From a virus: a stretch of DNA of 52,084 nt. Location of the stretch: the IMG/VR virus record IMGVR_UViG_3300047655_000011, positions 1-52,084 of that record; one strand, written 5' to 3'. Position 1 is the first letter of the stretch. Each line of letters opens with the position of its first letter. Under the pieces are notes generated by a model, which was not told the origin of the DNA, did not search any database, and worked only from the letters and a program-made list of their open reading frames with translations. Positions 4,658 through 24,939 of the stretch are shown here, one piece after another. Position numbers and translations under genes: made by a program.

Positions 4658-4929
4658 TAAATCATCAACCAAGGATGCAATCCTCCGCTGGATAGCGCAA
4701 GACCTTGGCAGCAGTGAAGATACGAAACACCTTAGAGAAGACAAAACGCACCCTAAAACGTGCATAGGAGAATTCAAATGAGAAGTCCGCCTAACGTTGG
4801 TTGACCTGAAATTTGAATATGTTTGTAGCACCTTAGTGAGTTAGGAAGTTCTGCGAGAGGGTGGCTGACGAGTGCTTGTAGGCGGTTAATGCAGGCAACG
4901 ATGCTGCCCTTTAGCATATAGCTAGATTT
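4658..4929 (+). ncRNA. Candidate structured non-coding RNA driven by P1
   Basis: A 272-base stretch without a convincing gene, placed between P1 and P2. It holds several pairable segments: CCAAGG 4669-4674 with CCTTGG 4703-4708, ATTCAAAT 4772-4779 with ATTTGAAT 4811-4818, and CCGCCTA 4787-4793 with TAGGCGG 4879-4885. Small local hairpins also exist (GGAT-GCA-ATCC; GCAC-GTGC near 4770). A GGAG site followed by an 8-codon frame (ATG at 4778) is the only coding possibility seen. No tRNA signature was found. I infer a phage regulatory RNA or a processed leader, because a dedicated promoter otherwise has no product. Confidence 0.5.
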
Positions 4930-4943
4930 TGCAATCAATTGCA
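4930..4943 (+). repeat. 14-bp palindromic repeat, site 3 (perfect), 8 bp upstream of P2
   Basis: TGCAATCAATTGCA. Exactly 8 bp (4944-4951) separate it from the -35 box of P2, the same spacing as at P6, P8 and P9. Confidence 0.93.
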
Positions 4944-4951
4944 CATTTTAC

Positions 4952-4979
4952 TTGACAAACCCAGCCATTGTGCTATCGT
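4952..4979 (+). promoter_or_regulatory. Promoter P2
   Basis: TTGACA 4952-4957, 16-bp spacer ending TTGTGC, then TATCGT 4974-4979. The conserved leader CTCAATGGAGTGAG lies at 4996-5009, just before the ATG at 5016. The palindromic site at 4930 is 8 bp upstream. Confidence 0.9.
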
Positions 4980-5015
4980 TAAAGTATTACAAATCCTCAA
5001 TGGAGTGAGGGAACA

Positions 5016-12835: not shown

Positions 12836-12901
12836 TGGTTCATCGTCTAATTTAAGGATTCCGTAGTTATCGGAGATGCGGGTGCGAATCCTGCTGAACC
12901 A
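12836..12901 (+). tRNA. tRNA-like element, degenerate or minimal
   Basis: 66 bases fold as a short cloverleaf. The acceptor is TGGTTCA/TGAACCA, the D-arm includes GTCTAATTTAAGGAT, and the anticodon-like hairpin is TCCG-TAGTTAT-CGGA. A T-arm GCGGG-TGCGAAT-CCTGC is clear. Problems are a 4-bp anticodon stem (a fifth pair would be T-G), a 2-3 base variable region and A instead of U before the central GTT triplet. If functional it would read GTT (Asn), but the missing U33 argues for a decayed tRNA or a tRNA mimic. It has no encoded CCA and stands 180 bases before the tmRNA. Confidence 0.42.
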
Positions 12902-12909
12902 CAAAGTTT

Positions 12910-13060
12910 TGCCGGGTGGATTTAGGTCCGAATGCAACAGAAGTTGCCCCGGCTCCAAGTTTGGCGTAGACCAGAGATGGCCCTAGCGAGTGGTGAGGCC
13001 GAAGTAATCAGCCCATAGGGCTGGTCAACCTCGTTGAAACTGTTGCCTCCTACGCCAAAG
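12910..13060 (+). ncRNA. Structured RNA upstream of the tmRNA
   Basis: Two adjacent stem systems and no gene. First, GCCGGG near 12911 pairs with CCCGGC near 12947, enclosing GCAAC-AGAA-GTTGC. Second, TTTGGCGTAG 12960-12969 pairs perfectly with CTACGCCAAA 13050-13059, enclosing GACCAG/CTGGTC and GCCCTA/TAGGGC pairs. The nested order predicts one long branched RNA. It ends only about 20 bases before the acceptor piece of the permuted tmRNA, so it could be part of that precursor or a separate RNA. I cannot place it in a known family. Confidence 0.5.
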
Positions 13061-13061
13061 T

Positions 13062-13440
13062 TAAGCATGTATAAGGTGACGGACTTTGATTTAACACGCG
13101 AGTTCGACTCTCGCCAGGTCCACCAACAAAAACTACGGGCCTGTCACGGTTTCGATTGAATTGGAGAAAGTCATGCAGTTCATGCCGGGATTGGTGCTCA
13201 CCGTAACGAGAACTGAACAAAGACTGCCACTGAAAGTGTCAGCACGAAGGGTAAGCTGTTGATGTTCCCTAACCGGAATGTTGGCCGTGAAGCCCTTCTC
13301 ATGGCTGCCTAATCTCAGCCACGCGCCGTCCAGAGGCGGGGAACAGAAGCCCCTCAGAACATCGAGGGGCACTGGATTAAGTTGTAAACGGCGACATTTT
13401 AGGGCGTTTTAACCGTTAAAATCACCCATCGCCCTTGAGC
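13062..13440 (+). ncRNA. ssrA: Circularly permuted (two-piece) tmRNA
   Basis: The 3' tRNA-like part comes first: T-arm GCGAG-TTCGACT-CTCGC (13098-13114), acceptor CAGGTCC (13115-13121), A and CCA (13123-13125). After an 11-base spacer, the 5' part begins with GGGCCTG (13137-13143), which pairs with that acceptor over 7 bp (one G-U), followed by the tmRNA D-loop signature GGTTTCGA. Helix P2 is supported by TTGAAT/ATTTAA and AAAGTC/GACTTT joining the two parts (13156-13172 with 13082-13094). A reading frame ends GCC CTT CTC ATG GCT GCC TAA (ALLMAA), with the stop (13310-13312) in the loop of a GGCTG/CAGCC hairpin, as in helix P5. Further stems follow (CGCCG/CGGCG, TCCAG/CTGGA, GCCCCTC/GAGGGGC). 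The tag start codon is not resolved. Role: ribosome rescue and protein tagging. Confidence 0.85.
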
Positions 13441-21636: not shown

Positions 21637-24600
21637 ATGAATTACAGAGACTATCTCGAACTCGAAACCACCCTCACCAGAAGGCTTGTAAAGGCATGGC
21701 GAGAGAATGCTGATCCTGTTTATGCTGAAATAGCCAAGGCAGTGCAGGATGGCCATTTCCAGATAGCCAAAGACTTAGTTCCCAGTCTTGATATGTTCCC
21801 TGTGGGGGAACAAAACCGGGAGTGGATACGAGCCATGTTAGCCTCGATAGCTACTTGGGGAGCCTCGAATGTGGTTGCTGACCCACATTTCAGTTTGCAG
21901 GGAAAGAATGGTCAGGTTCTGGACAACGTGGTTGATCTTACCCTCGCCTACCTAAAAGGAAATGCTACAGCCCAGGTGAGAGACCAGGCGTTGCAATCAA
22001 TTGCAGCCGCTGAAGGCAAGGTAGCCAAGAAAATCGATTTCAGCTTGCCTGAAGAGATGGCCGATATTGAGCCTAACGGCAAGTCTGATGACTTCAAGGC
22101 CATCGAGAAGCACATGGTGTTCCTTGCTGACCAAGCACTCAACACCTATCAGTTTGAGGCCGAGAAGTTCTACACCGCTACCAAGAACGATAAATGGCGG
22201 GTTACGTCAGCCCTACAAAAGGCCATACGGCGTGGGGACTTAGCCGAAGCAAGAAAGATGGCGGTAAAGGCTGTAGAGCTAGACAGCTATTATGCGTGGC
22301 GCAGGATGACAACCATAGCTGTTGAGGATGTTTCCTTTGGCAACTGCCCTGTTGTCGCTATGGTGCTGGCCACAAGTTCTAATATGGAAATCAGAAAGAA
22401 GCATGGCGATGGCAAGGTTGCTGCCTTCGTTGCAGAGCAGTTGGCAGGTTCCGTGAAGGACAGGATGGGTTGTGATGTAGCCTGCCTGGGGATTTATGGA
22501 GCAACCCTGCCCTTTTTAGGACTGGTAGAAAGCCTTGAGAAGGCGAGTAAAGAAGACCTTGCTGAAGAAGCTAGGGCCGAAGGCCCGGTGTTGAACAGAG
22601 CGTCAGCACTGAAGGTATTGTATGACAGGTGCAAGGTAGACAAAGATTGGACCCTGTATGCCGAGATGGTGCGCTCCTTCGAGCTTCCGCCACTGATGTC
22701 CTACATGGCGTTGAAGTCCAGCTATAAGGCGATTGATTCTTTGGCTGCTACCCTGCCACTTGCTGCGAAGATTGCCCGTGATTCCACTCAATTTAAGATC
22801 AGAAGAAATGAGCTTCCTGCTACCGAGCATGTTGGGGATTACCAGAGTGTAGCTTTCGACCAGTACACCCAGACAGGTAGGAGCAGTCTGGCCTATTTCT
22901 CGAAGGCGAGTGCTGGTGCAAGGCACTTTTTTAGTGAAAATGAAGTGACCAACAAGTGCGATGCCTTGGGAACAGTGCTGTTTAACACTGAAGGTAGTTT
23001 GCTTGATAGAGAGCTTGTTTTCGATCTTACTGATGTGATTCGGGAGAAGGTAGTCAAGATCGAGTATGTGAAGGTTGGCTTGCCTCTCGCTAAAGGGCAA
23101 GAGTTGGCTGCTGTGTTAAAGAGTGACTGCGAGATGTTACAGAAGGCTCGCACCAGAGTGTTTGAAAGGGAGCAAGCAGAGTACCTGGAGAAGCACCCTG
23201 AAACTGCCCAGCTTGAATTGTCGTTCAAGGCTGAGTACCAGTACGGCAGTACCCAGATTAACATTCACCCAGAGAGTGAAATGGCCCAGGAGATGGAGAG
23301 GTTGAAGGGGCTGATAGCCGACGAGGATTTGGCGGGTAAGGGAAAAGAGACTGAGAACCATGTAACGATTCGCTACGGCCTGGTTAGTGGCAAAGACGGC
23401 GTGCACGAGTATCTGAAGAAGCAAGGCCCGTTCGACATGGTGCTTGGCGGCATCACGGTATTCCCTGAATCAGAGCACAGTGATGGAGCCTGCCCTGTAG
23501 TGCTCGACATCAACGCGCCAGACCTTGAAAGAATGAATGCTGAATTGGCGAAAGCCGGGAAGTTTAAGGAAGCTGATTTCGAGTACCACCCCCATGCGAC
23601 ACTGGCCTATGTTAAGCCTGAAGTTGCTGATAAGTATAGACTTATGGGTGTGAATGGCCGGAAGTATTATCCGATTTCTGCTGTTATCTCGAACACCGAA
23701 GGAGAGCAGGAAGAGGTTCCGCTGTGTGGTGCAGCCAAGGCAGACGACAGCTACATCAAGCCTTTGGTAAGTTTTGGAGAAGATGGCGATGACCAGCTAC
23801 AGATGATCTCGTCGCTGAACTCCTCGCGCATGGCCTCTTGGGGTTTCATAGCTGAAGCAGACGCAAGAAACGTGAGAGAGTACACCTGGACAGAGCAGGA
23901 TGACTCACGCACTTGTGAGTTCTGCCGCATGATGCTCAACGAAGCACCAACGTTTCAGGTAGAGGATGCCCGCTCACTGGTGAACAGAGCTTTGGCCTGT
24001 ACTGACCCGAATGATCTAGCGACTATACAGCCCTGGCCAGACCAGTCTGATGATGCAATGGCTGAGTATGACGGTCTTGAAGACGAGGCTCTGGCCGATA
24101 AGTTGGCCGATCAGGGATTCCAAGTAGGGCCGTACCATCCTGGTTGCCGGGGGCACATGGCTATGGTTGCTGAAGAGGCTGAAGAAGCTGAACAGAACCC
24201 AGATATGCAGGTGCTGCCTGAGTATACTGCTACGCCTGACACCTTTGACGAGATGGGTATGGATGTTTCTGGTGAGGAAGCCGACAAGTGGAATTCTGCT
24301 ATTGGATTGAACCCCATGGATGTGTTGAGCACGCTTGCTGGCAAAGACGCTTCGGAGATGCTGGAGGATAAGCTGTCGTCTCTGATTTCCTTTGAGAAGA
24401 ATGGTGATGTTGCTGTATCCACTGAATTGGCTGATGACGCTGGTAACGTTGGCTTCAGCATGGACCCGATTACCGACAGGATGTATGTGGACAACATCGA
24501 CCTGGCGGAACAGGTCGCAGGCGAAGAAGGCGCTACATTAGAAGACGTGCTTGGGTCAATGATTGACATAGGCACCAGCGCCGGGGCAGGGAGTCTAACA

Positions 24601-24939
24601 ATGGAAATCTCAGAAGCCTCGGCTACTGCTCTAGGGAAGATGGGGTTTACTCCTAGTCCTTTGAAGTGGCAAACGATTCGTATGGATGCCCAAGACAAGT
24701 TAAATGGCCCTTTGAGAGATGCCGTGAAAGAGCTGTCTCCTGACGAGCAAACGACAATCTTTAGCTTGTTGGCGAGTAATGATGAGTCGAGTTTCTCTAC
24801 GCTGTGCCAGTTGCCTATAGAAGTATATGGCAAGCCTTTAGCAGAGCAGTTGTTTGGCGATTTGACTGGCCCTCTTAGCCTAGATTTGTCAGACGAAGAT
24901 GCGGTAGCTCAGGCGAAAGAGTATCTGGGGGGCGAATGA
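21637..24939 (+). CDS. Multidomain minor head protein with 2H phosphoesterase domain
   Basis: 1100 residues from ATG 21637. Residues about 185-250 (ALQKAIRRGDLAEA, then YYAWRRMTTIAVEDVSFGN) resemble the C-terminal helical region of RarA/MgsA clamp-loader-like proteins. Residues about 560-700 hold two H-x-T motifs, NHVTIRYG (H575) and HPHATLAYV (H653), the mark of 2H phosphoesterases. Residues about 745-845 (TWTEQDDSRTCEFC, then GPYHPGCRGHM) match the Mu gpF/SPP1 gp7 head-morphogenesis domain. The remaining 250 residues are acidic. The last domain predicts virion incorporation, so the enzyme domain may enter the cell with the DNA. 2H enzymes cleave cyclic or 2'-5' linked nucleotides; an anti-defence role is inference. 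Confidence 0.78.
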   Translation: MNYRDYLELETTLTRRLVKAWRENADPVYAEIAKAVQDGHFQIAKDLVPSLDMFPVGEQNREWIRAMLASIATWGASNVVADPHFSLQGKNGQVLDNVVDLTLAYLKGNATAQVRDQALQSIAAAEGKVAKKIDFSLPEEMADIEPNGKSDDFKAIEKHMVFLADQALNTYQFEAEKFYTATKNDKWRVTSALQKAIRRGDLAEARKMAVKAVELDSYYAWRRMTTIAVEDVSFGNCPVVAMVLATSSNMEIRKKHGDGKVAAFVAEQLAGSVKDRMGCDVACLGIYGATLPFLGLVESLEKASKEDLAEEARAEGPVLNRASALKVLYDRCKVDKDWTLYAEMVRSFELPPLMSYMALKSSYKAIDSLAATLPLAAKIARDSTQFKIRRNELPATEHVGDYQSVAFDQYTQTGRSSLAYFSKASAGARHFFSENEVTNKCDALGTVLFNTEGSLLDRELVFDLTDVIREKVVKIEYVKVGLPLAKGQELAAVLKSDCEMLQKARTRVFEREQAEYLEKHPETAQLELSFKAEYQYGSTQINIHPESEMAQEMERLKGLIADEDLAGKGKETENHVTIRYGLVSGKDGVHEYLKKQGPFDMVLGGITVFPESEHSDGACPVVLDINAPDLERMNAELAKAGKFKEADFEYHPHATLAYVKPEVADKYRLMGVNGRKYYPISAVISNTEGEQEEVPLCGAAKADDSYIKPLVSFGEDGDDQLQMISSLNSSRMASWGFIAEADARNVREYTWTEQDDSRTCEFCRMMLNEAPTFQVEDARSLVNRALACTDPNDLATIQPWPDQSDDAMAEYDGLEDEALADKLADQGFQVGPYHPGCRGHMAMVAEEAEEAEQNPDMQVLPEYTATPDTFDEMGMDVSGEEADKWNSAIGLNPMDVLSTLAGKDASEMLEDKLSSLISFEKNGDVAVSTELADDAGNVGFSMDPITDRMYVDNIDLAEQVAGEEGATLEDVLGSMIDIGTSAGAGSLTMEISEASATALGKMGFTPSPLKWQTIRMDAQDKLNGPLRDAVKELSPDEQTTIFSLLASNDESSFSTLCQLPIEVYGKPLAEQLFGDLTGPLSLDLSDEDAVAQAKEYLGGE
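21992..22005 (+). repeat. 14-bp palindromic repeat, site 11 (perfect)
   Basis: TGCAATCAATTGCA inside the minor head gene (encodes LQSIA). It is only 420 bp from site 10, the closest pair in the window. Confidence 0.92.

Follow-up and report, generated by a model that had tools for sequence, protein, structure and literature searches.

The permuted form of tmRNA is the norm in Alphaproteobacteria, Betaproteobacteria, and Cyanobacteria. The Rfam family RF04321 merges the models of these groups (RF01849, RF01850, and RF01851, respectively). Phage-borne genes of this type are already known: besides that of phage Melnitz, a 2022 survey reported 53 two-piece tmRNAs, mostly marine or aquatic, among 18,146 phage genomes, with the Melnitz gene being related to alphaproteobacterial genes (PMC9004378). 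Like Melnitz and the marine phages, the 52,084-nucleotide viral contig analyzed here (IMG/VR record IMGVR_UViG_3300047655_000011; hereafter, the window) carries a phage-borne permuted tmRNA. What is new is a phage-associated clade with an unusually long, conserved tag, both of which the original prediction, made for this locus from its letters alone, missed. The clade and its AKVLAFPA-type tag are set apart from Melnitz by description rather than by alignment of the Melnitz gene, and the two may overlap. Mycobacteriophage DS6A also bears a tmRNA-like RNA, which is CDS-less (PMC11915505), whereas the tag frame in the window is intact.

The window derives from a soil-type tailed phage related to Delepquintavirus, with genes for DNA polymerase, rIIA-like, portal, tape measure, and major tail proteins. 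Its DNA polymerase shares 49% identity with those of Stenotrophomonas phages DLP_5 and Summit and about 40% with those of Rhizobium and Rhodobacter phages. Since several related viral contigs measure ~112-120 kb, the window probably represents about half a genome. This half holds no SmpB gene, so SmpB would have to be supplied by the host. The tmRNA gene occupies noncoding DNA that has small genes on one side and the DNA polymerase gene on the other. Searching viral contigs for related loci via the DNA polymerase returned none, whereas a capsid protein query did find relatives. A permuted tmRNA scored above cutoff in 0 of 32 related viral records, and ARAGORN called none in five stretches from relatives around the same place, so the gene is an accessory one in this phage lineage. 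Elsewhere in the contig, adjoining portal and head genes, a 1,100-residue protein (21637-24939) matches a PHROG named RNA ligase over residues 552-664 (E 7e-10).

The original prediction that this phage carries a tmRNA gene of the circularly permuted, two-piece type was confirmed by both of the computational checks it suggested. The permuted model RF04321 matched the plus strand at 13065-13312 with 61.8 bits (Rfam cutoff, 47; E 1.2e-9) over its full length (model positions 1-213 of 213), and ARAGORN independently called a permuted tmRNA at the same locus. The window RNA falls below the threshold of the betaproteobacterial model RF01850 (41.1 bits versus a cutoff of 84) and has no match at gathering to the alphaproteobacterial RF01849, the cutoff of which (50) is exceeded by the relatives L116 (59.5 bits) and L130 (53.6 bits). 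It resembles RF04321 permuted tmRNAs in gene order, acceptor stem, T arm, D-loop GGTTTCGA, P2, encoded CCA, G3:U70, and a tag ending in -AA. It departs from typical members in its lower score and in a 28-residue tag without the AND start, whereas most of the permuted tmRNAs read encode tags of 10-16 residues. Metagenomic contigs can be misassembled, but this gene is flanked by phage genes within one contig; together with the E value, the covariation described below, and independent relatives in many contigs and in an isolate phage, this makes chance resemblance or misassembly hardly credible.

Table 1. Features of the permuted tmRNA gene in the window
Feature	Position	Strand	Evidence
Acceptor piece	13065..13125	+	Rfam RF04321, family alignment, covariation
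P2 3' sides (acceptor piece)	13065-13069, 13077-13080, 13087-13094	+	
T arm	13098-13114	+	
Acceptor 3' strand, CAGGTCC	13115-13121	+	
A73 and encoded CCA	13122-13125 (CCA, 13123-13125)	+	
Spacer (intervening sequence), 11 bases	13126..13136	+	Relatives' spacers unrelated
Coding piece	13137..13356	+	RF04321, family alignment, covariation; exact 3' end inferred
Acceptor 5' strand, GGGCCTG (G3 pairing with U70)	13137-13143	+	
D-loop, GGTTTCGA	13148-13155	+	
P2 5' sides (coding piece)	13156-13163, 13170-13173, 13181-13185	+	
Tag frame, ATESVSTKGKLLMFPNRNVGREALLMAA + TAA	13226..13312	+	Homologous frames in relatives, third-position variation
Hairpin with stop codon in loop, GGCTG-CCTAATCT-CAGCC, P5-like	13303..13320	+	Sequence; relatives show the same hairpin
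3' element	13332..13354	+	Alignment of post-stop region

The acceptor piece with its CCA comes first and the 5' tRNA part follows, the two being closed by the 7-bp acceptor stem (Table 1). Both acceptor strands and the 11-base spacer lie exactly where the original prediction had placed them, the D-loop motif follows the acceptor 5' strand as stated, and the P2 pairing between the halves is borne out. Nothing disrupts the acceptor stem, T arm, P2, encoded CCA, or stop-codon hairpin. The G3:U70 pair, which is the alanine signal, is retained. The coding piece further holds the pseudoknot region, the tag, and the 3' element. Conservation points to GCC at 13226 as the resume codon, and the stop codon indeed sits in a hairpin loop (13303-13307 pairing with 13316-13320). 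In the 3' element, a short stem with a single mismatch encloses the conserved GGGGAACAGAA (13338-13348). The predicted extent of 13062-13440 reaches too far downstream, since the conserved GGxAACAGAA and its stem end near 13354. Immediately upstream, a predicted structured leader (12961..13058, plus strand) adjoins the acceptor piece; it is closed by an inverted repeat (TTGGCGTAG at 12961-12969 with CTACGCCAA at 13050-13058), and the region 12900-13063 has a fold z-score of -3.4 and no Rfam match. A search for a sigma-70-like promoter near the tmRNA gene found none. Farther upstream, 12836-12901 can be drawn as a tRNA-like cloverleaf, in which the 7-bp acceptor (TGGTTCA/TGAACCA) and T stem are perfect, the anticodon loop is TAGTTAT with A33, and no CCA is encoded; neither ARAGORN nor Rfam called it.

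The tmRNA family RNA is under structural selection, with strongly covarying helices. In an alignment of 11 clade members, with spacers removed and not fitted to the structure, which was itself written from these same sequences, 93.5% of cells were paired and 18 of 30 pairs had changed on both sides. None of 500 shuffles did as well, and sliding by one column reduced pairing to ~44%. The U70-G3 pair (columns 82/91) is invariant in 11/11 sequences, and neighboring acceptor pairs covary. The window forms P2a from UUGAAUUG and UGAUUUAA; most other members form it from CGGGAUCA and UGAUUUCG. The spacers between the two pieces range from 4 to 120 nt in the relatives and are unrelated in sequence. 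Terminal stems close the likewise unrelated spacers of L115, L126, L130, L131, L132, L262, L263, and L228, several long ones among them, and the L131 spacer contains two copies of one element, the second inverted. Such terminal stems fit a segment that is discarded yet helped to fold back.

The long tag is under coding selection and is conserved as a peptide. Clade tags comprise 25-34 residues of the form A...AKVLAFPA...ALxMAA. That of the window (28 residues, ending ALLMAA before the stop, with the C-terminal alanines present) is the most diverged, with GKLLMFPN in place of AKVLAFPA. Relatives carry homologous frames, so the frame originally proposed is the right tag. A different tag position proposed by ARAGORN (GEQKPLRTS...) was rejected, as it lies beyond the conserved stop hairpin and nothing in the relatives corresponds to it; the ARAGORN output itself reads "Tag not identified." Among clade members, pairwise differences in tag codons amount to 444, 424, and 761 at positions 1, 2, and 3. 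The core residues are conserved with synonymous change, and variation falls mainly at third positions, indicating that the tag is selected as a peptide. At the MAA end, the stop-codon hairpin is a further constraint, so conservation there cannot be credited to the peptide alone. Decay to a remnant, or a decoy role in which the RNA engages SmpB or the ribosome without tagging, as reported for the DS6A RNA, would accord with the divergence of the window tag, the G-U pairs in its P2 helix, and an RF04321 score of 61.8 bits compared with 79-98 bits in relatives. Either is nevertheless very improbable in view of tRNA-like helices that are all intact with compensatory changes, a frame open for 28 codons up to a stop in a conserved hairpin, and the third-position bias across the family.

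We defined the clade by a backbone grouping made without the tag plus a tag of at least 25 residues with an (A/G)K(V/L)(L/I)xFP core at the same distance from the D-loop. The window core GKLLMFP fits this pattern 97 nt from GGTTTCGA, the same distance as in G005/L052, a relative in an unrelated contig, with which it has the core K(V/L)(I/L)(A/M)FP in common. A pattern search found the core in tmRNA context in 23 viral contigs. Some of these form a coherent group, whose tags include ATTRDSKKSAKVLAFPARTVALQMAA (L124), AKNTDSAKNAKVLAFPARPAVALQMAA (L115), and ATLKSVGTKFAKLLTFPVSEPVALPMAA (L121). A second pattern built on tag residues and stop alone hit 13 viral contigs. Of these, 12 carry the tmRNA family, ten being known members and two new ones (L262 and L263), and one is a chance match. 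L264 and L133 were discarded as chance matches to the tag motif, showing no signs of a tmRNA. The closeness of the window RNA to L121 (72% over 168 nt, E 9e-15, blastn) is confined to the RNA; the compared stretches of relatives' contigs have no protein similarity to the window and nothing else in common with it. G005, considered as a relative of the window phage because of a similar position, was rejected on the same ground.

In a tree, the 13 clade members stand apart from 20 other permuted tmRNAs, one of them bacterial (L137), with an ultrafast bootstrap of 94; the tree is short and unrooted, built on 149 columns excluding the tag, and its inner branches are weak. One gene (L005) has an ordinary backbone yet a tag with AKVIAFPA. 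KVIxFP tags (GTKVINFPSARALAA, TGKVIAFPAPMAQAA, and ATKVIQFPQALSAIAA) also occur in one-piece viral tmRNAs (L114:1337, L119:11155, and L128, minus strand, 4850-4980, respectively). Spread of the motif, or more than one origin, may account for this; because the pattern required K..xFP, the unforced residues are V, I, and A only. The clade is apparently new, phage-borne, and undescribed.

The tag core recurs in Tunturi 5, a 309-kb jumbo phage of Tunturiibacter (PP885688.1; Acidobacteriota, Terriglobia), the isolate paper of which never mentions a tmRNA. Its unannotated permuted tmRNA (RF04321, 86.4 bits) has a hand-read 34-residue tag, AKNSPVVRGTAKVLSFARKFVPAVSSTRAFAMAA. RNA type and tag core are those of the window; points of difference are the jumbo phage of Acidobacteriota that carries it, the D-loop GGCTTCGA, and the tag length, and the gene lies outside the 13-member tree. 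In a sampled acidobacterial class, which may not be Terriglobia, one-piece tmRNAs scored above cutoff in 38 of 39 genomes and permuted ones in 0 of 98; ten of the one-piece RNAs were read and have tags of 9-10 residues. The whole noncoding region of the window had no blastn match among 50,697 phage records; the T-arm stretch alone retrieved Tunturi 5 and others with weak E values. A typical tag had no tblastn match in phages and plasmids, which is weak evidence, as short queries are insensitive and Tunturi 5 itself was missed.

The tag motif looks viral. It was found in 0 of 385 genomes from the class of a Hyphomicrobiaceae MAG (Alphaproteobacteria) and in 0 of 369 from that of a Sideroxydans MAG (Gammaproteobacteria in GTDB, including Burkholderiales); the lack of hits in these 754 bacterial genomes carries weight when reckoned per tmRNA gene, not per base searched. 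AKVIAFPA in tmRNA context occurred in 0 of 84,980 species genomes, compared with 2 viral contigs. These counts bear on whether the phage recently picked up an ordinary bacterial permuted tmRNA from a host, the long tag being a quirk of that host lineage. Such an origin draws on how common permuted tmRNAs are in the three bacterial groups that carry them, on two phage relatives of the window infecting Rhizobium and Rhodobacter, and on the search for the broad motif having covered only ~750 bacterial genomes, so that the host genus could be missed. We consider it unlikely, because the motif is absent from both proteobacterial samples and, as AKVIAFPA in tmRNA context, from the species genomes, the backbone of the clade stands apart from other permuted tmRNAs, and one member resides in a phage of Acidobacteriota, where the sampled class has one-piece genes.

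We therefore favor, with considerable confidence, a functional permuted tmRNA of a tailed phage that uses host SmpB and AlaRS for ribosome rescue, appends a phage-specified 28-residue tag, and belongs to a viral long-tag clade. By analogy with the two-piece tmRNA of Caulobacter, host tRNA-processing enzymes would most likely cut the transcript after CCA and before GGG, removing the spacer (13126-13136) by tRNA-type processing and leaving two RNAs, one for the acceptor (~13065-13125) and one coding (13137 to ~13356), that stay joined through P2 and the 7-bp acceptor stem. Alanine would be loaded by host AlaRS via G3:U70, and SmpB would bring the RNA to ribosomes stalled on broken messages, where translation would resume at GCC 13226, add the tag ending ALLMAA, and release the ribosome. 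A phage-borne tmRNA is most naturally understood as serving rescue or tagging during infection, and its benefit would likely lie in freeing ribosomes from messages broken during infection. Most likely, the tag directs products to a host protease recognizing C-terminal degrons. Its conserved middle suggests a second binding function, and whether the core adds such a function beyond rescue tagging is the interesting point: a phage-specific tag conserved and selected as a peptide points to a defined, testable role. More tentatively, these genes may form a mobile viral two-piece lineage with its own long tag, the AKVLAFPA core of which serves beyond plain degradation (e.g., in binding phage or host adaptors), alongside or in competition with the host tmRNA, even in one-piece bacteria. 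A permuted tmRNA in a phage of one-piece bacteria means that viruses can mix the two gene forms across hosts.

A narrow pattern search recovered permuted tmRNAs in 28 more viral contigs, most with ordinary tags of 10-16 residues. These contigs and the 53 two-piece phage genes surveyed previously (PMC9004378) contradict the earlier view that phage tmRNAs are only one-piece. Two isolate phages also carry unannotated permuted tmRNAs with ordinary tags, namely, Xanthomonas phage X1 (L229:669-997; OQ427096.1; 76.6 bits) and Stenotrophomonas phage QDWS359 (L230:670-964; ON331942.1; 108.7 bits), the latter gene being overlapped by a hypothetical protein on the opposite strand. Among bacteria, a Brevundimonas genome (G023; L141, C6:19498-19664) has, in addition to its permuted tmRNA, a second, subthreshold RF04321 match elsewhere (31.6 bits).
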